Positions 5,220-60,523 of a stretch of 64,000 nucleotides of DNA are shown here, piece after piece (the stretch's first letter is position 1; each line of letters opens with the position of its first letter). Location of the stretch: assembly GCA_016342755.1 (NCBI GenBank), contig JAEINS010000011.1:62001-126000 (forward strand), in the 5' to 3' direction. A program made the translations under genes and the position numbers. Source of the DNA: Melioribacteraceae bacterium. Its GTDB lineage: Bacteria > Bacteroidota > Ignavibacteria > Ignavibacteriales > Melioribacteraceae. The notes beneath the pieces are model-generated. The model was not told where the DNA came from. It did no database searches and worked only from the letters and a program-made list of their open reading frames with translations.

Positions 5220-7082
5220 TTGAGCACATATAAAAGAATAGTAAGGTTTTTTTCAGCTTTTTGGAAACATATATCAATAGCAGTAGTCTGTTCTTTTCTT
5301 TATTCAATACTGCATGGAGCTTCGGTTTATTTTGCGATTCCCTTGCTCGATACTTTGTTTATTAAAACTGGTGCTAGTGAAAAAGGAACCAGTATAGTAA
5401 CTCAGGAAAAAACTTCAAGCATTATACCTGATTGGATTAGCAATGTTGTTGACGGTATAAAAGAATCATTTCACAATTTTATTTTTGTTGGCGACACTTC
5501 TGAAATTCTATTTAGGATTTGCATACTTATAGTACTGGCATTTCTTGGCAAGAGTATTTTTGGGTATTTAGAATCATATTATTTGGCATATGTTCAGCAA
5601 GGTGTAATCAAAAAATTTAGAGACGATACTTATAAACATTTACATAAGTTACCCATGAGTTATTTTAAAAATGAACGAACCGGGGACTTAATTTCAAGAA
5701 TTACCAACGATGTAAATGTTATACAAAATAGTTTTAGCGCAGTATTCAAAAGCATTTTTAGAGAGCCTATTACAATTATTGTGTTTACAGCAATTGCACT
5801 TTCAATTAGCTGGAAACTGTTTTTAATATCATCGGTTATTTTACCATTATCAGTTGGTATTATTGGTTTTGTCGGGATAAGATTAAGAAACCAAACGAGA
5901 AAACTTCAACATCAAATTGGAAATATAACAGCGGTTCTTCAGGAAACAATTGCTGGTGTTAAGATTGTTAAAGCCTTTGGAATGGAAAATTATGAAAATG
6001 CAAAATTCATGAATTTCACCAGACGTTATTCTAAAACAGCACTTAAAAAAGTCAGAGTCCAGAATATTTCTTCCCCAATGACGGAAATACTCTCTGTTAT
6101 TGTCGGCGTAATTATTATCTATTACGGTGGAATTCTTGTTATTATTGATCAAACTTTAAAAGCCAGTGAATTCATGGTGTTTTTATTATCAATTTTCCAG
6201 ATGATACCTCCGATGAAAGTAATGGCAACTGTTAATAACAGGATTCAGGAATCAATTGCGGCGGGTGATAGAGTTTTTGAATTATTAGATACCGAACCAT
6301 CAATTAAGAATATAGAAAATCCTAAAAGTATAAAGAGTTTTGAAAACAAACTGCGTTTTGAAAACGTATCATTCCATTATGATGATTCGCCTGAATTAGT
6401 TTTAGATGATGTTTCGTTAGAAGTAAATTATGGAGAAATTATTGCATTTGTCGGCAGCAGCGGAGCCGGAAAAACTACATTGGTCGATTTAATTCCTCGT
6501 TTCTATGATCCAACATCCGGCAGAATTACTATCAATGGTATTGATACAAAAGATTATGATCTAAACGATTTAAGAGAACTAATGGGTATTGTAACTCAGG
6601 AAACTATCTTATTTAATGAAAGCGTTTTTAATAATATAGCTTACGGTCTTTCTGATATTCCGCTCGAAAAGGTAATTAAGGTTGCTAAGGTTGCCAATGC
6701 CCATACATTTATTGAAGAAATGCCAAATGGCTATGATACAGTAGTTGGAGAACACGGTACCAAATTATCCGGCGGACAAAGACAGCGTATATCTATTGCC
6801 AGAGCACTGCTAAAAAATCCGCCAATAATGATTTTTGATGAAGCAACATCGGCACTTGATAATGAATCGGAAGTGCTTGTTCAGGAAGCCATTGAGAATT
6901 TGATGAAAGAGAGAACAACCTTGGTTATTGCCCATAGATTAAGTACAATTCGTAATGCGGATAAAATTATTGTGCTAGATAAAGGAAAGATAGTTCAACT
7001 AGGGAAACATGAACAACTGCTGCAAGACGAACAAGGTATATACAAAAAATTATATGAATTACAGTTTAGATCGAATATATAG
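5220..7082 (+). CDS. ABC exporter, MsbA/LmrA-like half transporter
   Basis: A 620-aa half transporter with six membrane segments in the first ~330 residues and one nucleotide-binding domain. It has Walker A GSSGAGKTT (about residue 411), Q-loop TQETILF, signature LSGGQRQR (about 514), Walker B IMIFDEATSALD (about 536) and switch His in IAHRLST. The type fits MsbA lipid A flippases or related multidrug exporters. Its position next to LPS-core genes favours lipid A or glycolipid export. The start is TTG at 5220, with GAAGAG at 5209-5214 as ribosome site. An unusual ~70-residue loop (residues 40-110) lies between the first two membrane segments. Substrate not proven. Confidence 0.85.
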   Translation: MSTYKRIVRFFSAFWKHISIAVVCSFLYSILHGASVYFAIPLLDTLFIKTGASEKGTSIVTQEKTSSIIPDWISNVVDGIKESFHNFIFVGDTSEILFRICILIVLAFLGKSIFGYLESYYLAYVQQGVIKKFRDDTYKHLHKLPMSYFKNERTGDLISRITNDVNVIQNSFSAVFKSIFREPITIIVFTAIALSISWKLFLISSVILPLSVGIIGFVGIRLRNQTRKLQHQIGNITAVLQETIAGVKIVKAFGMENYENAKFMNFTRRYSKTALKKVRVQNISSPMTEILSVIVGVIIIYYGGILVIIDQTLKASEFMVFLLSIFQMIPPMKVMATVNNRIQESIAAGDRVFELLDTEPSIKNIENPKSIKSFENKLRFENVSFHYDDSPELVLDDVSLEVNYGEIIAFVGSSGAGKTTLVDLIPRFYDPTSGRITINGIDTKDYDLNDLRELMGIVTQETILFNESVFNNIAYGLSDIPLEKVIKVAKVANAHTFIEEMPNGYDTVVGEHGTKLSGGQRQRISIARALLKNPPIMIFDEATSALDNESEVLVQEAIENLMKERTTLVIAHRLSTIRNADKIIVLDKGKIVQLGKHEQLLQDEQGIYKKLYELQFRSNI

Positions 7083-7090
7083 GTGACTAA

Positions 7091-7975
7091 TTGAAGTTAG
7101 GAATTGTACCAAACATATCAAAATCGAATATTGTAATTGTTGTTCTGGAACTAATTAAAAAATTAACAGAAAACAATATCAGTTACTTGATAAGTAATCA
7201 GTTATTGAACCTTGATGATTCTTCGATAACAAAAATTGATAAATCCGTTTTTGCTGATAACAAAAAATTATATGCTGATAGCGATATTATTGTTTCGATA
7301 GGCGGTGATGGTACTATGCTTACTACGGCTTACGAAGCTAGAGATTATGCAACGCCTTTAGCCGGAGTTAATTTTGGTAAATTAGGATTTCTTGCGGAAT
7401 TTGAAATAAGCAATATTGACGGGCTTATAAATGATATAAAAACCAAGAACTATATTATTGAAGATAGAATGGTTCTGGAAGCCAAATTAAAAGGCAACGG
7501 TGATGATCTGCTTTATGCAATTAATGATATTGTGATTGATAAAGGCAGATGGCCGAAGATGATTGAACTTACAATTAAAATTGATAATGATTATGTCTCT
7601 AAGTTTTCGGCTGACGGAGTAATAATTGCAACTCCAACCGGCTCAACCGGATATTCGCTTTCAGCAAACGGCCCTATTGTAACGCCTAATTCAGATGTTA
7701 TAACTATAAACCCTATATCACCGCATACATTAACAATGCGGCCTCTAATTATTCCGAGCGATCAGAAAATTGAAATCAGTATAAACTCTCCAGACTCAAA
7801 GGCTCAAATTAATTGTGACGGTCAAAGGGTAAATTTATTTGATCAGCCGGTTACATTGGAAGTATATAAAAGTGAAAATCCAGTTAAGCTTATTCATTCA
7901 AAATCTACCAGCTACTTTGAGATTTTAAGGAAAAAACTTTTCTGGGGAATAGATAGCAGAAAACCATCAAATTAA
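7091..7975 (+). CDS. nadK: NAD kinase
   Basis: A 294-aa ATP/polyphosphate-dependent NAD kinase that phosphorylates NAD to NADP in the cytoplasm. It shows the diagnostic SIGGDGTML loop (about residue 72), NDIVIDKG (about 145) and the glycine-rich DGVIIATPTGSTGYSLSAN segment (about 173-191). TTG at 7091 is the likely start, with a strong AGGTGA ribosome site at 7081-7086. That site begins right at the stop of the ABC exporter, so the two genes are coupled, although no functional link is known. Confidence 0.95.
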   Translation: MKLGIVPNISKSNIVIVVLELIKKLTENNISYLISNQLLNLDDSSITKIDKSVFADNKKLYADSDIIVSIGGDGTMLTTAYEARDYATPLAGVNFGKLGFLAEFEISNIDGLINDIKTKNYIIEDRMVLEAKLKGNGDDLLYAINDIVIDKGRWPKMIELTIKIDNDYVSKFSADGVIIATPTGSTGYSLSANGPIVTPNSDVITINPISPHTLTMRPLIIPSDQKIEISINSPDSKAQINCDGQRVNLFDQPVTLEVYKSENPVKLIHSKSTSYFEILRKKLFWGIDSRKPSN

Positions 7976-42170: not shown

Positions 42171-42242
42171 TCAGATTTGGAAATCACATTAATTAAACAT
42201 AAGTTTGCATCTTATTTAATTTCTATGAAACGGAGAAAAAAA

Positions 42243-42944
42243 ATGAAGTTGAAGAGTTTAATATTAGTAGTATTTATTTTTGGATTAATATCATGTGGAG
42301 TAAAAGAAGTGAAAGAAGCGGATTTAACAACAGATAAGGCTAAAGCTAGCTATGCGATTGGCCAGAACGTAGGAAGCAGTTTTAAACAACAGCAATTAAC
42401 AACAGACGATATAGAATTAAACGCATTTAATCAAGGTGTTGCCGATGCGTTAAAGGATACATCAGTTGTAGAACAAGCAGATTTACAGCAGGCATTAATG
42501 GCATTCCAGAAAGAAATGACTGCTAAGGCTGAAGAAAGAAAGAACGCTGCCAGTGAATTAAATAAAAAAGAAGGCGAAACTTTTTTAGCTGAAAATAAAA
42601 CTAAAGAAGATGTTCAGGTTACTGAGAGCGGACTTCAATATAAAGTTATTACAGAAGGTACAGGCGCCAGTCCAAAAAGTACTGATAAAGTTACTGTAAA
42701 CTATGAGGGTAAACTTATTAGCGGTAAAGTTTTTGACAGTTCTTATGAAAGAGGCGAGCCAACTTCATTTGGAGTAAATCAGGTAATTCCCGGCTGGACT
42801 GAAGGATTACAGTTAATGAAAGAAGGATCAACATTCGAATTTTTTATTCCATCTAACTTAGCTTATGGCGAAAGAGGTGCTGGTGGTAACATTGGTCCGG
42901 ATGCAACTTTAATCTTCAAAGTTGAACTTATTAAAGTTAACTAA
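42243..42944 (+). CDS. FKBP-type peptidyl-prolyl isomerase, lipoprotein
   Basis: A 233-aa protein. A signal peptide ends in a lipobox (FGLISCG), so it is probably anchored to a membrane in the envelope. Residues ~30-125 form the FKBP N-terminal dimerisation helices (KASYAIGQNVGSSFKQQ, VADALKDTS, LNKKEGETFLAENK). Residues ~140-233 form the FKBP isomerase domain (VNYEGKLISGKVFDSSYERG, VIPGWTEGLQLMKEGS, FIPSNLAYGERGAGG). ATG 42243 is chosen because GGAG at 42231-42234 precedes it and because the signal peptide starts there, not at the TTG at 42177. It folds exported proteins and is paralogous to the next gene. Confidence 0.9.
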   Translation: MKLKSLILVVFIFGLISCGVKEVKEADLTTDKAKASYAIGQNVGSSFKQQQLTTDDIELNAFNQGVADALKDTSVVEQADLQQALMAFQKEMTAKAEERKNAASELNKKEGETFLAENKTKEDVQVTESGLQYKVITEGTGASPKSTDKVTVNYEGKLISGKVFDSSYERGEPTSFGVNQVIPGWTEGLQLMKEGSTFEFFIPSNLAYGERGAGGNIGPDATLIFKVELIKVN

Positions 42945-42959
42945 GAATACATTTTATAA

Positions 42960-42989
42960 GTTAACCAATGGATTTTTCCATTGGTTAAC
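42960..42989 (+). terminator. 13-bp perfect hairpin between the two FKBP genes
   Basis: GTTAACCAATGGA (42960-42972) pairs perfectly with TCCATTGGTTAAC (42977-42989) around TTTT. No U run follows (ATTCATAT), so it is a weak intrinsic terminator at best; it may set the relative expression of the two paralogues. Confidence 0.6.
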
Positions 42990-43073
42990 ATTCATATCAC
43001 TTCCGTTTGCTTCTTTTCTATTTTACAATTATTTTCACACGTTAATTTTCCAATGTTTATTAAAGGTTATAGA

Positions 43074-43757
43074 ATGAGATTACTTACAATCATATTTGTA
43101 TTCGGTTTTTTGATTAATACAGCAGCACAGGATAAAGTTCAACTGAAAACCGAGAAAGATAAATTCAGTTATTCGCTTGGATATGAATTGGGAAATAATA
43201 TGCATGCCCAGGAAATGGATTTGAATGTTGAAGCTCTGGTTAAAGGATTAACAAACGGTTTGGAAGCAAATCCGGAACTAATGAATCCGGACGAAATGAC
43301 AGAGCTTATCATAAAAGTCCAGAGTGAAATGATCCAAAAAAGGGAAGCCGAGAAAAGAGTTGTTGCTGACAGAAACAAAAAAGAAGGCGAAACTTTTTTA
43401 GCTAAAAATAGAACTAAAGAAGGAATTATTGAAACCGAAAGCGGCTTACAATACAGAGTTATTAAAGAAGGAACCGGAAAACCAATTGGTGATTCTGAAA
43501 ATGTTAAGATACATTACAGAGGTTATTTTCTTGATGGTGGGGAATTTGATAATTCTTACAAAAGAGGCGAGCCATACGATTTTGATGTTACCGGTGTAAT
43601 TACCGGATGGAAAGAAGCATTAAAATTAATGAAAGAAGGCGATAAGTGGCAACTATTTATTCCTTATCATTTAGCGTATGGCGAGCAGGGCGGAAGAGGA
43701 ATGGAGCCTTGTAAGATGCTTCTTTTTGATATTGAGATAATTTCGATTGTAAAATAA
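43074..43757 (+). CDS. FKBP-type peptidyl-prolyl isomerase, exported
   Basis: A 227-aa paralogue of the preceding gene. It has a cleavable signal peptide (FVFGFLINTAA-Q) instead of a lipobox, the same helical N-domain (KFSYSLGYELGNNMHAQE ... KKEGETFLAKNRTKEG) and an FKBP domain (IHYRGYFLDGGEFDNSY, GWKEALKLMKEGD, FIPYHLAYGEQGGRG). ATG 43074 is preferred because AAAGG at 43063-43067 precedes it and upstream codons lie inside the hairpin. It is followed by a convergent FeoB gene. The two genes probably supply periplasmic prolyl isomerases of different location. Confidence 0.9.
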   Translation: MRLLTIIFVFGFLINTAAQDKVQLKTEKDKFSYSLGYELGNNMHAQEMDLNVEALVKGLTNGLEANPELMNPDEMTELIIKVQSEMIQKREAEKRVVADRNKKEGETFLAKNRTKEGIIETESGLQYRVIKEGTGKPIGDSENVKIHYRGYFLDGGEFDNSYKRGEPYDFDVTGVITGWKEALKLMKEGDKWQLFIPYHLAYGEQGGRGMEPCKMLLFDIEIISIVK

Positions 43758-43796: not shown

Positions 43797-45941
43797 CTAA
43801 ATAAACAGTTTTGTAATATTATATGCTATAAATGCCATTATCCAGCTCATGCTAGTTGTATAACCCAGATATAAAAGAGTCCATTTAATATTTCCCGCTT
43901 CTCTAAAAAACACAATAGTTGCAGAAATACAGGGTACATACAGTAATACAAAAACCATAAACGCAATTGCAACAGCTTCATTGTAGTTTGGATCGGATTG
44001 CAGGCGGGTTCTAAGATTGGCTGATTCTTCATCCGTATCACCAAGAGCGTATATTGTTCCCATTGTAGAAACAACTATTTCTTTGGCTGCAACGCCGGTA
44101 ACTAATGCTATTCCAAGTCTCCAGTCGAAGCCGAGAGGAGATATAATGGGCTCAATCGATTTTCCAATTTTTCCGGCAAGTGAAAATGCCAGGTTATCGG
44201 ATGCCGCTTGATTTTGCAGATGTGTTATTTTACTTGTTTTTTCAATTTCAGTTAGTGTTTCAGAATTCTGTACATTCTCAACTTGTTTAGTCAGATGAAG
44301 ATTAATAAGCTCATTCTTAGGATAGTTGCTTGCAATCCATATTAAAACTGATGCCAGCAAAATAATAGTACCGGCTTTTCTTAAATATGAATAAGCTTTC
44401 ATCCACATCTGCATAAATAGCGATCTGAAAGTAGGCATTCTATAAGGAGGAAGCTCCATTACAAAAGGTTCGGAGACTCCTTTAAATACTGTTGTCTTTA
44501 AAAGTTTTGCTGAAAGTAACGCTAAAATAACACCAAGCAAATAAATTAAAGAAAGGATATTTCCTGCCTGATCAACAGGGAAAAACGCGCCTATAAAAAG
44601 AATATAAACGGGAAACTTTGCACTGCAGCTCATGAAAGGAATAATAAGCAGAGTGGTAATTCTGTCACTTTCACTTTTCAAAGTTCTTGTTCCCATAAAT
44701 GCCGGTACAGAACAGCCAAATCCGGTTATCATAGGGATAAATGATTTTCCGTGTAATCCAAATTTGTGCATTACTTTATCAATTACAAAAGCCGCTCTGG
44801 CCATGTAACCGGTTCCTTCTAAAATTGCCAAAGCAAAAAATAAAATCATAATATTAGGCAGAAATATAAGAACGCCGCCAACACCCGATATAATGCCGTC
44901 AACAATAATTGATTTTAATATGCCATCGGGTAATAACGTAGCAAATGCCATTCCCAGTTTTTCAAAACCGATTTCAATCAATTGCATTGGAACTTCTCCC
45001 AGCGCAAAAGTAGCCTGGAAAATCAGCCACATAAAAAACGCGAATATAGGAAGTCCGGTAATTCTATTTATCAGTATCCTGTCAATTTTTTCGGAGAGTG
45101 TTAGAGCTTTTTTTTGTCCAATAGTAACAGTTTCTTTTAAAGCACCATTTATAAAGGCGAAGCTTTCTTCCATCAAAATCATTTCAGGATCAGAATTATA
45201 TTTCTTTTCAAAATCTCTAAAAACAGAGGAAAGATAGTTTTGTACTTTTATCCATACCGGATATTTTTGAATTAAGTTATAGATGCTTTTATCGCTGACT
45301 AAAAGTTTAATAGCCAGCCATCTGGTATTATATTTTGCTGATAGTTCTTTATCTTTATTTAAAATTTTTGTCAGTTTCTCAATTCTTTCTTCAAGAATTT
45401 CGGAGTAGTTAAGTTTATTTTTTTTTGCTTCAATTTCACCGGTGTAAAGATCAACTATATGATCTAATAAGGATTCAATTCCTTCATTTTTTACTGCCGA
45501 TGTTGGTACTAAATGCGCGCCTAATAATTTTTCCAGTTGGTCAATATCAATGCTAATAATCTTTTTGTCAGCTTCATCAAACATATTTAAGGCAACAATC
45601 ATGTTGCTGCCTAAATTCATAAGCTGGGTTGTTAACAAAAGATTTCGTTCAAGATTTGTTGTATCAACAACATCCACAACCACATCTGGTTTTTTATTTA
45701 TCAAATAATCTCTGGCAACAAGTTCTTCCGGCGAATAACTTGTAAGACTGTAAGTTCCGGGCAGATCAACAATAGTAATTTTGTATCCTTTTCGGTAAGT
45801 TACACCTTCAACCTTTTCAACTGTAACTCCCGAAAAATTTCCAACTTTCTGATTAGCACCAACAATGCTATTGAACAGAGAGGTTTTACCACAATTAGGA
45901 TTTCCGGCAAGCGCAACATTTATTTCCATAGGAAGTTTCAT
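43797..45941 (-). CDS. feoB: Ferrous iron transport protein B
   Basis: A 714-aa Fe(II) uptake protein. An N-terminal GTPase domain has GNPNCGKTSLF (residues ~13-23), switch I with GVTVEK, DLPGTYSL and LNMFDEAD. A helical GDI-like spacer follows, then eight or more membrane helices with the two Gate motifs, including GYMARAAFVID and the FGCSVPAF cysteine and PFMSCSAKFPVYI segments. Length is at the low end for FeoB. It follows the FeoA-like gene by 9 bases and is co-transcribed with it. Confidence 0.96.
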   Translation of the reverse strand: MKLPMEINVALAGNPNCGKTSLFNSIVGANQKVGNFSGVTVEKVEGVTYRKGYKITIVDLPGTYSLTSYSPEELVARDYLINKKPDVVVDVVDTTNLERNLLLTTQLMNLGSNMIVALNMFDEADKKIISIDIDQLEKLLGAHLVPTSAVKNEGIESLLDHIVDLYTGEIEAKKNKLNYSEILEERIEKLTKILNKDKELSAKYNTRWLAIKLLVSDKSIYNLIQKYPVWIKVQNYLSSVFRDFEKKYNSDPEMILMEESFAFINGALKETVTIGQKKALTLSEKIDRILINRITGLPIFAFFMWLIFQATFALGEVPMQLIEIGFEKLGMAFATLLPDGILKSIIVDGIISGVGGVLIFLPNIMILFFALAILEGTGYMARAAFVIDKVMHKFGLHGKSFIPMITGFGCSVPAFMGTRTLKSESDRITTLLIIPFMSCSAKFPVYILFIGAFFPVDQAGNILSLIYLLGVILALLSAKLLKTTVFKGVSEPFVMELPPYRMPTFRSLFMQMWMKAYSYLRKAGTIILLASVLIWIASNYPKNELINLHLTKQVENVQNSETLTEIEKTSKITHLQNQAASDNLAFSLAGKIGKSIEPIISPLGFDWRLGIALVTGVAAKEIVVSTMGTIYALGDTDEESANLRTRLQSDPNYNEAVAIAFMVFVLLYVPCISATIVFFREAGNIKWTLLYLGYTTSMSWIMAFIAYNITKLFI

Positions 45942-58160: not shown

Positions 58161-58190
58161 ATTAAACAACTTTTATTATTCTAAACTTTG

Positions 58191-58264
58191 TACCCCGGAA
58201 AGGATTCGAACCTTCGACCTACAGTTTAGGAAACTGTCGCTCTATCCTGCTGAGCTACCGGGGC
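58191..58264 (-). tRNA. tRNA-Arg (anticodon CCT)
   Basis: Cloverleaf read by hand: acceptor stem GCCCCGG/CCGGGGT, D arm GCTC/GAGC, anticodon stem ACAGT/ACTGT with loop TTCCTAA (CCT, reads AGG), TPsiC stem GAAGG/CCTTT. It sits 30 bases upstream (transcription-wise) of the CCG gene, so the two may be processed from one transcript. The first 42 tRNA bases plus 39 upstream bases are repeated exactly at 60389-60469. Confidence 0.95.
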
Positions 58265-58303
58265 AAATAAAACTCAATTATAACGGCGAATATAAAGATT
58301 TGG
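58223..58303. repeat. 81-bp direct repeat, left copy (within tRNA-Arg CCT)
   Basis: This 81-bp segment is identical base for base to 60389-60469. It covers tRNA positions 1-42 (through the anticodon loop into the 3' side of its stem) and 39 bp of upstream flank, including a minus-strand TATAAT box at 58277-58282. Left of it the copies diverge inside the anticodon stem; right of it they share a further 9 bases (CAATTATAT) after an 11-base gap. It looks like an attachment-site-like core. Confidence 0.9.
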
Positions 58304-58507
58304 AAGGGGTTTATCAATTATATTGTTAAAATGACTATAAATAGATGTTTATTATGTCAAAACTTAATATAATATCTGTTTTTCTCAAATTCTTTTTAAG
58401 TAGCCTTTTCTGAATATAAGAGCTCGTACTAATCAAAACACTAATCACTTAAAGATAGATTATCTCATTTAATCAAAAAACATGAAAGAGCTTTAATTTA
58501 TAAATTA

Positions 58508-59557
58508 CTAGATTTTAGTTGTTAACTCTTCTAATTTTTTAGCCATTCTCCTTAGTTGTACAGATTTTTTTTTTGCTTTTAGTTTAATTTCATCTATATC
58601 GTATCTACACGAACCACATGTTGCATTTTCTAAGCTTTGTTGATGCAAACAATTGGGACAAATCCATTCTTTTTTTTCTTTTCCGAATACACCTTTTTTA
58701 TCAACATAAAGTGGATACTGTTCAAATTCATTCTCAATTTTTGAAGCAATACTTTTTAATAAGGGGATATCATCAGAATCATAATATTCCTTATTACAAT
58801 CTAATAAAGTTAATGTTCTAACTTGACTGTTAAAACTTGAAGATTCAAATAAAAGAACTATAACCGATAAATCTAGCCAATATATTTCATTAAGTATCCT
58901 AATAATCCTTTTGAAGTTTGATGTATTAAAGTTTAAAAATGTATCTGAAGTTATAAAATCACTAATAGATTTTGAGGGTACAAAGGAAAAGTAGTTCACA
59001 ATTTGTTCAAAGATATTAGAAAAATCTACATTCTCTAGTGAGCATGCATATAAAAATACTTGTGATGTTAAGTCAACTTCATATTTTAATAGTGAATTAA
59101 CAGTTTTAATAGATTTGATTCTTGAATTTAAATAATATTCTTTAAATTCTTCTTGCTTGACTAAAAACTCCAAAGTATCAGAATAAATTTTATTACTAAT
59201 AACATTTTTAGTTTCATCAATTGGTATTCCTTTAATTGCTGTACCATAAAGTGAAACCATAAACATTGATTTTCCACCTCCCGAAATTTCATCAAAATCA
59301 ATTCTTAATCCGATAATTATATTGGCTCCTTTTATGAAAGCCTTTTCAGAAAGAGATTTAAGTCCAACCTCTTCCATCTTTTTTAATTCTTTTTGATAAC
59401 CTTGTGCAAATCCACCGACAACATCTCTTATCCCTGAAAACATGTCTTTGAACAAATTTGCTCCAATAACTAATTGGTGTGTTACTATACCGCAGTATCT
59501 TTCAATTTTCCATCCTTCGATATTAGAAGTTGTGGTTATTAAGTCTAACTGCTTCAT
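58508..59557 (-). CDS. YbjQ-like domain joined to a C-terminal zinc ribbon
   Basis: A 349-aa protein inside the repeat-flanked segment. Residues ~8-110 resemble YbjQ/UPF0145 (LITTTSNIEGWKIERYCGIV, FIKGANIIIGLRIDFDEI, MVSLYGTAI), a pentameric beta-alpha family of unsettled role. A middle region (~115-290) is helical and unrecognised. A C-terminal zinc ribbon (C-x2-C ... C-x2-C in WICPNCLHQQSLENATCGSC, about 310-330) ends in a Lys-rich coil. The TAATG junction couples it to the upstream lipoprotein gene by a 1-base overlap. It may bind metal or nucleic acid; function unknown. Confidence 0.7.
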   Translation of the reverse strand: MKQLDLITTTSNIEGWKIERYCGIVTHQLVIGANLFKDMFSGIRDVVGGFAQGYQKELKKMEEVGLKSLSEKAFIKGANIIIGLRIDFDEISGGGKSMFMVSLYGTAIKGIPIDETKNVISNKIYSDTLEFLVKQEEFKEYYLNSRIKSIKTVNSLLKYEVDLTSQVFLYACSLENVDFSNIFEQIVNYFSFVPSKSISDFITSDTFLNFNTSNFKRIIRILNEIYWLDLSVIVLLFESSSFNSQVRTLTLLDCNKEYYDSDDIPLLKSIASKIENEFEQYPLYVDKKGVFGKEKKEWICPNCLHQQSLENATCGSCRYDIDEIKLKAKKKSVQLRRMAKKLEELTTKI

Positions 59558-59955
59558 TATTTTCTCCTAATTGCATAGCCAAATAATTCATAATAAGGGA
59601 CTAAATCTCCACCATTATTGTATTCTTTTTTTTCGATTTTAAAGTTCATTATCCCATTAGCACCCATTTCTTTTGCTTTTACATACATTGAATCAAGTGC
59701 TTCCATTGGTGAAAGATTCTCATAATTCAATTTAGTCGTGTTGTACCCTTTTTTTACTTTAGTTTCGGGATAAACAGCACACTCCATTATTGCTAATATT
59801 TCATAATCAGTATCTAAAATTAAGGGAGTAATATAAAACTGTTTTTCAAGATATGGTCTCAAATCAAAACCATTATAAAAAGTAGTTCTGTTCATTTCTA
59901 TTGCTTCCGGCATACAGCCAACTAACAGAATAAATACAAACAATACTTTTTTCAT
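59557..59955 (-). CDS. Small lipoprotein with a YbjQ-like strand pattern
   Basis: A 132-aa lipoprotein (signal ends LLVGCMPEA). Its C-terminal part, AKEMGANGIMNFKIE and YYELFGYAIRRK, has the same order of helix and strands as YbjQ-type proteins (the GAN.I....I.K pattern and final YGxA strand). This suggests that it shares the fold of the first domain of its partner. The partner starts on its stop codon, so the two are translated together. GAGGGA precedes ATG 59955. It is the first gene of the cassette inside the 81-bp repeats. Confidence 0.65.
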   Translation of the reverse strand: MKKVLFVFILLVGCMPEAIEMNRTTFYNGFDLRPYLEKQFYITPLILDTDYEILAIMECAVYPETKVKKGYNTTKLNYENLSPMEALDSMYVKAKEMGANGIMNFKIEKKEYNNGGDLVPYYELFGYAIRRK

Positions 59956-60388
59956 GATAAATCCCTCATTTATTTATTAAGAGTAATAGTTTGCTATTTA
60001 TTTGCCCGATATATTGAAGATATATAGCCCTTATAATATCGAGTTTTGAATTTAAGTTACAATAATTTGAGAATTAATTCAATTCTTATTCTTTAGTTAG
60101 CAATTAAACAATTCTATTTTAGTACAATTTTAGAATAATTAAATTTAATATTTATAATTTGTTACTAATTTTCTTAATTATACAGTGTAAAGTTATACAC
60201 TTCTTAGTGTATTCTTAGTAAACCATTCAGTTCTTAAAAAGTAAAATTATTTTTTTTTGATAAAAAATATAATAAGTTCCGTTACTTCTTTTTGAAATAA
60301 ACATAGGTTCCTCCTATGCAATTTCACATCAAATAATCAAAAGACTAATCAATCTTAGGTAAGTAGTTATTTTTATTAGTGGGGAATA
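59956..60388. other. 433-base AT-rich gap inside the repeat-flanked segment
   Basis: Very AT-rich DNA upstream of the lipoprotein gene, holding its presumed promoter. I see no coding frame of convincing pattern, no integrase remnant, and no inverted repeats longer than about 8 bases. It ends at the right copy of the 81-bp repeat. Confidence 0.6.
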
Positions 60389-60469
60389 AGTTTAGGAAAC
60401 TGTCGCTCTATCCTGCTGAGCTACCGGGGCAAATAAAACTCAATTATAACGGCGAATATAAAGATTTGG
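60389..60469. pseudogene. 81-bp direct repeat, right copy (5' fragment of tRNA-Arg CCT)
   Basis: Exact copy of 58223-58303: bases 1-42 of tRNA-Arg (CCT) (60389-60430 on the minus strand) plus 39 bp of its upstream flank. It lacks the 3' half of the tRNA (TPsiC arm and acceptor 3' strand), so it cannot make a functional tRNA, although its promoter box is retained. The boundary falls inside the anticodon arm, where tyrosine integrases often cross over. It marks the far end of the probable insertion at 58304-60388. Confidence 0.9.
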
Positions 60470-60523
60470 CAATTATATAATTTACAATGAGTACATTAAA
60501 TCAATAAAATGGGGAAAAAGTTT

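Follow-up and report, generated by a model that had tools for sequence, protein, structure and literature searches.

The window studied here is a stretch of 64,000 nucleotides from a Melioribacteraceae bacterium (contig JAEINS010000011.1, positions 62,001 to 126,000 of the forward strand), and our subject is a 2.1-kb segment within it that lies between two partial copies of a tRNA-Arg gene. ARAGORN places an intact tRNA-Arg with the anticodon CCT at 58190..58264 on the minus strand. Nucleotides 1-42 of this tRNA, together with 39 bp upstream, occur twice on the same strand, as copy 1 at 58223..58303 and as copy 2 at 60389..60469. The copies agree at 81/81 bases and form a direct repeat with an offset of 2166 bp, and a search of the whole genome (4,731,990 bases, E <= 0.001) matched the block at these two places only, which confirms the perfect repeat described in an earlier reading made from the letters of the DNA (the sequence-only reading). 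Exact direct 24-mer pairs across the 64 kb fall at just two spacings, that of the tRNA repeat and an unrelated one of 813 bp, and we therefore exclude a chance origin of the repeat. The block takes in the anticodon loop and nearly the whole anticodon stem and stops at tRNA nucleotide 42, within the 3' strand of that stem, so that its left boundary lies in the anticodon arm, as had been stated; the anticodon arm is a known crossover zone in tRNA genes. The intact gene has the displaced 5' fragment upstream of it in the same orientation. Both this arrangement and the boundary are those of a tRNA island of 5' polarity.

The segment between the two copies is single-copy in the genome and AT-rich (GC content 26.2%, vs 32.4% for the window). 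The two cargo genes that the earlier reading saw bracketed by the repeats are both present on the minus strand and overlap by one base, 59557. The first (58508..59557) encodes a protein of 349 aa with an N-terminal YbjQ_1 domain (Pfam PF01906, E 3.8e-26) and a C-terminal four-Cys motif that we judged by eye to be a zinc ribbon. The second (59557..59955) encodes 132 aa with a lipoprotein-like start, also judged by eye, and a weak similarity to YbjQ_1 that stays under the cut-off (E 0.0077, 17.3 bits against a cut-off of 23). Proteins homologous to the 349-aa one over its full length (30-32% identity) were found in 4 of 395 genomes of the phylum; the two further matching genomes were the genome itself and G023, the latter with a partial match. 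The expectation that this cargo would turn up beside other tRNA genes in related genomes was not borne out, as none of the four homologue loci has an adjoining tRNA within its 1.5-kb flanks; one has a tRNA-Met about 1.3 kb off. We considered an anti-phage role for the cargo and rejected it: the sole PADLOC match was that of the 349-aa protein to LmuB (E 0.0043), and the 132-aa protein had none. No transfer or conjugation gene was found among the two cargo proteins; no search for oriT was made.

Both ends of the segment carry tandem motifs on the plus strand that we regard as putative arm-type sites of a tyrosine integrase. The left pair, ACTAATCAAAACACTAATCA, occupies 58428..58447 with a 12-bp spacing, and a weaker third candidate site, TTTAATCAAAA, lies at 58468 in the left end. 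The right pair, AATAATCAAAAGACTAATCA, also with a 12-bp spacing, occupies 60332..60351, 37 bp from the repeat copy and 27 bp from the integrase start described below. In the 64 kb, ACTAATCA has three copies on the plus strand, all of them within the segment ends, and three on the minus strand, which are elsewhere. With up to one mismatch, the pair is present across the 4.73-Mb genome at the two segment ends only. Of 300 shuffles, 1 produced comparable tandem 8-mers in both ends, as did 3 of 266 other paired stretches of the window, and a broader regular expression for the pair gave two matches in the window, both of them the segment ends, with about 0.5 expected from the control rate.

We extended the search to 164 genomes of the order, this one included. 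The motif TAATCAAAASASTAATCA occurs exactly in four places, namely both ends here and two sites in G491, a genome of another genus. Allowing one mismatch raised the count to 23 places, vs 18 for a reversed control; because 23 barely exceeds 18, the weight of the motif lies in the four exact matches and in what the near matches adjoin. The reversed control is void for the scan of the own genome and for a scan of 28 genomes, as the pair pattern reads the same backwards. Seven of the 19 one-mismatch sites, in six genomes, form arm pairs that adjoin a tRNA or an integrase, and L314 lies about 170 bp from a tRNA-Lys. Among the 28 genomes with pair-pattern matches, wider stretches were read in eight (G491 among them, G000 and 19 others not), and an element was seen in G491 only. 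The arm pattern is matched exactly at 19 loci in IMG/VR, of which one also shows a weak integrase match; we did not use these as evidence. Outside the window, one and the same sequence, TAATCAAAACAGTCATCA, matches the arm pattern with one mismatch at two sites 1311 bp apart on one contig (G000:C8:42495-42512 and 43806-43823; L322, L323), and their flanks gave no tRNA or integrase match.

The right end also holds the start of an integrase gene. Comparison with an integrase family that we label SKRSNG, after its N-terminus, identified its first 16 codons, MFISKRSNGTYYIFYQ, at 60257..60304 on the minus strand, followed by unrelated codons and a stop. The order inward from the repeat is the arm pair (60351-60332), the ribosome-binding-site-like AGGAGGAA (60308..60315, minus strand, read 60315-60308), the ATG at 60304, MFISKRSNGTYYIFYQ, the unrelated codons and the stop. 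Of the first 15 residues, 13 are identical to the family N-terminus; no other 15-residue stretch in any of the six frames of the 64 kb exceeds 7/15, and the right end, shuffled 300 times, gives 8 at best. With 16 codons left, no intact integrase gene is present, and the segment is a decayed tyrosine-integrase tRNA island, not a functional one. The matching start and the shared layout at the right end lead us to conclude that an integrase gene was once present and was lost beyond codon 16. The sequence-only reading had reported no integrase, which holds for an intact gene and fails for the persisting start at 60304-60257; it had also left open whether the integrase was lost or never carried, and a 16-codon remnant in the matching place settles this in favour of loss.

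We rejected other candidate integrase pieces in the segment. The best, within the 349-aa gene, is a match that spans 117 residues at 22% and was seen with one of four integrases (E 8.4e-4 without composition correction, 0.043 with it); we took it as chance, as we did short matches near the left end with E of 1 and worse. The ribosome-binding site of the remnant sits in a short hairpin (60301-60319, minus strand) that also qualifies as terminator-like, and this hairpin could have limited translation of the integrase.

Variants of the arm pair with one mismatch flank two apparently complete tRNA elements of 7.2 and 8.4 kb in other genera, beside a 336-aa tyrosine integrase. In G083 the element sits at a tRNA-Phe, with a duplicated block (t15-77) that is 100% identical, arm pairs at both ends and an integrase at 6206-7216; in G007 it sits at a tRNA-Ser, with a block (t27-127) that is 98% identical, arm pairs at both ends and an integrase. 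The window element shares with both a near-identical arm-pair consensus and, at the displaced end, the order of core, arm sites, ribosome-binding site and integrase; it differs from them in that they are larger, retain the integrase and duplicate the 3' part of the tRNA. One G007 protein contains primase/D5 domains, among the relatives' proteins scanned, and the window copy is at most a candidate satellite. An integrase also lies beside arm pairs in G476 (tRNA-Thr) and in G078. The four integrases (G083, G007, G476 and G078) share 43-88% identity, the Pfam Phage_integrase domain was found in both family integrases scanned, and for one family integrase the ten best matches listed among phage records have 27.9-29.2% identity. 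The layout of core side, arm pair, GGAG-type ribosome-binding site and ATG is common to G083, G492, G007, G078 and the window, with about 45 extra bases between pair and ATG in G078, and the proteins of these four relatives begin M-x-L-S-K-R-S-N-G. The position of the integrase varies within the family, as in G476 and G481 the integrase adjoins an intact tRNA.

Stripped forms occur among these relatives as well. G492 (L346 5654-7470) has a 1.7-kb mini-element at a tRNA-Met, which carries arm pairs at both ends but no more of the integrase than a truncated start, and G481 (tRNA-Thr) likewise retains only a truncated start. In G491 (L293 2275-9230) a 6.8-kb stretch between two tRNA-Phe 3' remnants has the exact TAATCAAAASASTAATCA and arm pairs at one end; its cargo includes a SIR2-like protein (PADLOC E 9e-9; under the Pfam cut-off), a type I methyltransferase-specificity fusion and other ORFs (open reading frames), and no integrase was found in it. 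An IMG/VR contig (L351) carries a 43%-identical integrase directly 3' of an intact tRNA-Arg(CCT), without TAATCA pairs.

Based on the end pairs, the integrase-bearing relatives and the 16-codon remnant, we conclude with high confidence that the segment from about 58230 to 60395 is the remnant of a small integrative element with 5' polarity and a tyrosine integrase, an element that kept its cargo and lost its integrase. The core of the sequence-only reading is thereby upheld. We propose that a SKRSNG-family integrase would have recombined the chromosomal tRNA-Arg(CCT) with an attP that carried tRNA-Arg nucleotides 1-42 and 39 bp of upstream DNA, the crossover being probably in the anticodon loop. 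On integration the host 5' half, of which copy 2 is the likely displaced form, would have moved off by 2.2 kb together with its promoter, and the tRNA gene would have been regenerated from the element's own 5' half (copy 1) and its -10 region. Later loss of the integrase past codon 16 would have left both ends and the cargo in place without a recombinase. The best promoter-like match of the region, TTGCCA-18-TATAAT (60443..60472, minus strand, 11/12), lies at the displaced half and is the candidate native tRNA promoter; at the intact tRNA the TATAAT is kept and the TTGCCA -35 is gone. This fits an original upstream flank from 60470 onward, and transcription of tRNA-Arg(CCT) is now probably driven from element DNA.

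Orientation within the family is mixed. At the displaced end the pair runs in the direction of the tRNA in 3/3 relatives that have one there (G083, G007 and G492), and against it in the window. Pairs beside an intact tRNA run in both directions in G083, G492, G476, G481 and G491, and for this reason G476, G481 and G491 do not decide the matter. The sense of the tRNA relative to the integrase gene is the same in the window as in G476, G481 and L351, and opposite to that in G083, G007 and G492.

Upstream DNA of tRNA-Arg(CCT) was compared in 41 relatives, none of the same genus as the window genome. One protein of G022, whose family is that of the window genome, is 100% identical to a protein from a named Melioribacteraceae genome (L180), which points to the Melioribacteraceae (Ignavibacteria) as the lineage. 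In 39 of them there is no copy of the 5' half, which fits an insertion in the window's lineage, although the neighbouring genes differ; G069 and G078 have copies of other make-up. This check used 40 relative loci, from which G002 (L169) was dropped for having no tRNA-Arg(CCT), and its reach in the other 39 was 2.25 to 18.5 kb. In G078 (L046 1-235), at a contig end, the tRNA-Arg(CCT) 5' part and the region upstream of it are duplicated in tandem (112 bp), and the displaced copy holds a hairpin-like insert.

Several results weigh against a decayed element of 5' polarity. No empty site was found among these relatives of other genera; seven window proteins searched against 42 relative loci (E <= 1e-3, downstream reach mostly about 1.5 kb) gave no match, and neither did the neighbouring 668-aa protein when scanned in named genomes. 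The broader pair expression matches eight times in 1.016 Mb of control regions, and pairs alone are no proof; for 11 of the 19 one-mismatch sites, flanks of up to 1.5 kb gave neither a tRNA nor an integrase match, and none of the genome's own 11 integrase-domain loci has a pair within flanks of that length. The mapped displaced fragments of G083, G007, G491 and G492 all carry the tRNA 3' part, so that 5' use was seen once in the family. The region has 14 promoter-like sites vs 15.2 expected in shuffles, which makes the match at 60443..60472 weak when taken by itself, and it is on this one match that the choice of the original flank depends.

The two relatives with copies of other make-up brought in further ways of building such a repeat. 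In G069 (L064 2809-3940) three 350-bp units with GIY-YIG nuclease genes lie directly 5' of tRNA-Arg(CCT), with tRNA remnants that stop at nucleotide 41/42, and an insert in a remnant at L064, read by eye, is able to form a hairpin. Such genes are small (about 80-120 aa), directly adjoin a tRNA gene whose direction they share, and in some cases form tandem units of 300-450 bp; at L065-L094, L121-L129 and L180-L259 the units have partial tRNA copies on their far side, in both 5'-side and 3'-side forms. A match to a tRNA-adjacent GIY-YIG protein was present in 52 of 58 relatives searched, the own genome included. When the 30 best loci were taken, one per genome, 23 were within about 320 bp of a same-direction tRNA (seven on its 5' side, 16 on its 3' side) and seven were near none. 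Among 80 loci in named genomes (Ignavibacteria, other Bacteroidota, Patescibacteria and others), 69 lay within 159 bp of a same-direction tRNA, 41 on the 5' side and 28 on the 3' side, a fraction biased upward because these are the best 80 of 110 confirmed loci and the queries were themselves tRNA-adjacent; 54 of the 69 have a partial tRNA copy on the far side of the gene. In many of the flanking remnants, inserts of about 20-130 nucleotides split the tRNA near nucleotides 21/22, in the D loop, and 35/36, in the anticodon, as in L094/L180 (Ser-GCT), L065 (Arg-CCT), L067 (Arg-CCG), L191 and others. Judging from these arrangements, the units look like a widespread mobile unit associated with tRNA genes, and we found no description of them in the portions of the open-licence PMC literature covered.

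Could the segment have entered by this GIY-YIG route, its nuclease gene since lost or replaced? The units of G069 raise the question, as they adjoin the 5' side of the same tRNA and their remnants end where the window repeat ends. We rejected it and consider it very improbable: the segment has no GIY-YIG similarity and no such nuclease gene against the tRNA, the three GIY-YIG matches of the own genome are not at tRNAs, and the integrase remnant and arm pairs account for the ends directly. In addition, at five 5'-side loci where the outermost remnant is clear (L065, L067, L069, L088 and L091), it shares 0-8 upstream bases vs 39 in the window, and at a sixth, L127, the match is longer but accompanies one more GIY-YIG copy, itself truncated. 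Alternatively, the 5' part of the tRNA may have been duplicated in tandem without site-specific recombination, unrelated genes having been inserted or caught between the two copies. Such a duplication has counterparts in short-range duplications of upstream DNA and tRNA 5' parts in relatives (G078 at the same tRNA, L074 and L089, among others); it predicts neither arm pairs at both ends, nor a matching integrase start, nor a boundary in the anticodon stem, and its chance is slighter still. Least probable of all is an assembly artefact, which the perfection of the repeat might suggest: the contig (134,673 bases) continues on both sides, the end structures are specific to such elements, and 81 bp is below the size of usual short sequencing reads.

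A different question is whether the decayed element is dead, or non-autonomous and still excisable or movable when a family integrase from another element acts in the same cell. Both core copies and both arm pairs look complete, the 81-bp copies are still 100% identical, and arm pairs persist without an intact integrase in G492 (at both ends of its 1.7 kb) and in G491 (at one end). Plain decay fits the solitary truncated integrase starts of G492 and G481, and the lack of arm pairs in the flanks (up to 1.5 kb) of the genome's own integrase-domain genes, noted above, also speaks against mobilisation, which we think unlikely.

Two further partial duplications were seen in passing. The 813-bp spacing belongs to a second direct repeat with exact 24-mers at window 42564/43377, within the neighbouring ORFs 42177-42944 and 42981-43757. 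Close to a contig end, a tRNA-Val(TAC) gene (L096 188-263, G000:C20) has a 3' fragment (nucleotides 46-76) 141 bp downstream.

An element of 5' polarity at a tRNA gene is a known, uncommon arrangement, of which the window copy is a new, decayed member; Zhao and Williams 2002 reportedly provide a precedent for tRNA islands with a 5' tDNA fragment. Of the 3919 tRNA/tmRNA islands in Islander, 159 have a 5' fragment and 2083 an anticodon-centred site (PMC4383910), and recombination with the tRNA 5' region is described as considerably rarer (PMC6563490). The polarity that had been called unusual, with the 5' half as the duplicated part, is uncommon but documented. Like the 5'-fragment islands of Islander, the window element has a tRNA that would have been split and rebuilt with the island's 5' half, a boundary in the anticodon arm and a displaced 5' fragment upstream; unlike them, it is only 2.1 kb long and its integrase gene is cut to 16 codons. 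Islander discards candidates without an integrase (PMC4383910), and integrase-less remnants such as this one therefore fall outside it.

Two other classes invite comparison. A CIME (cis-mobilizable element) is a decayed integrative and conjugative or integrative and mobilizable element (ICE or IME) whose integration and transfer genes are gone (PMC5704250). The window element likewise kept attL and attR and lost its recombinase gene; it departs from the definition given there in that no conjugation gene was seen in it, and its parent may have been satellite-like. The pTN3-like elements are described as using the tRNA 5' half, with the tRNA expressed from the integrase promoter, a use seldom met in bacteria (PMC8371274). 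They share with the window element an attB in the tRNA 5' half and a recombinant tRNA transcribed from element DNA, as is probable here; unlike the window element they are archaeal and have an integrase, and the likeness drawn here is one of arrangement.

With this segment, an integrase-stripped case of 5' polarity, in itself uncommon, has been mapped, along with a recognisable arm motif and the coordinates of integrase-bearing relatives. As a tentative idea, to which we give low odds, members of one integrase family may read the near-palindromic anticodon arm in either orientation to the arm sites, taking the tRNA 3' half in one case and the 5' half with its promoter in the other, and integrase-less mini-elements with both arm pairs (such as the window element and that of G492) could then move in trans as a non-autonomous class. 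The mapped case opens to testing whether one integrase family reads the anticodon arm both ways. Integrase-less tRNA mini-islands, which integrase-filtered finders drop, become searchable via their arm pairs. The locus also suggests that an element of this kind is able to take over the transcription of a host tRNA.

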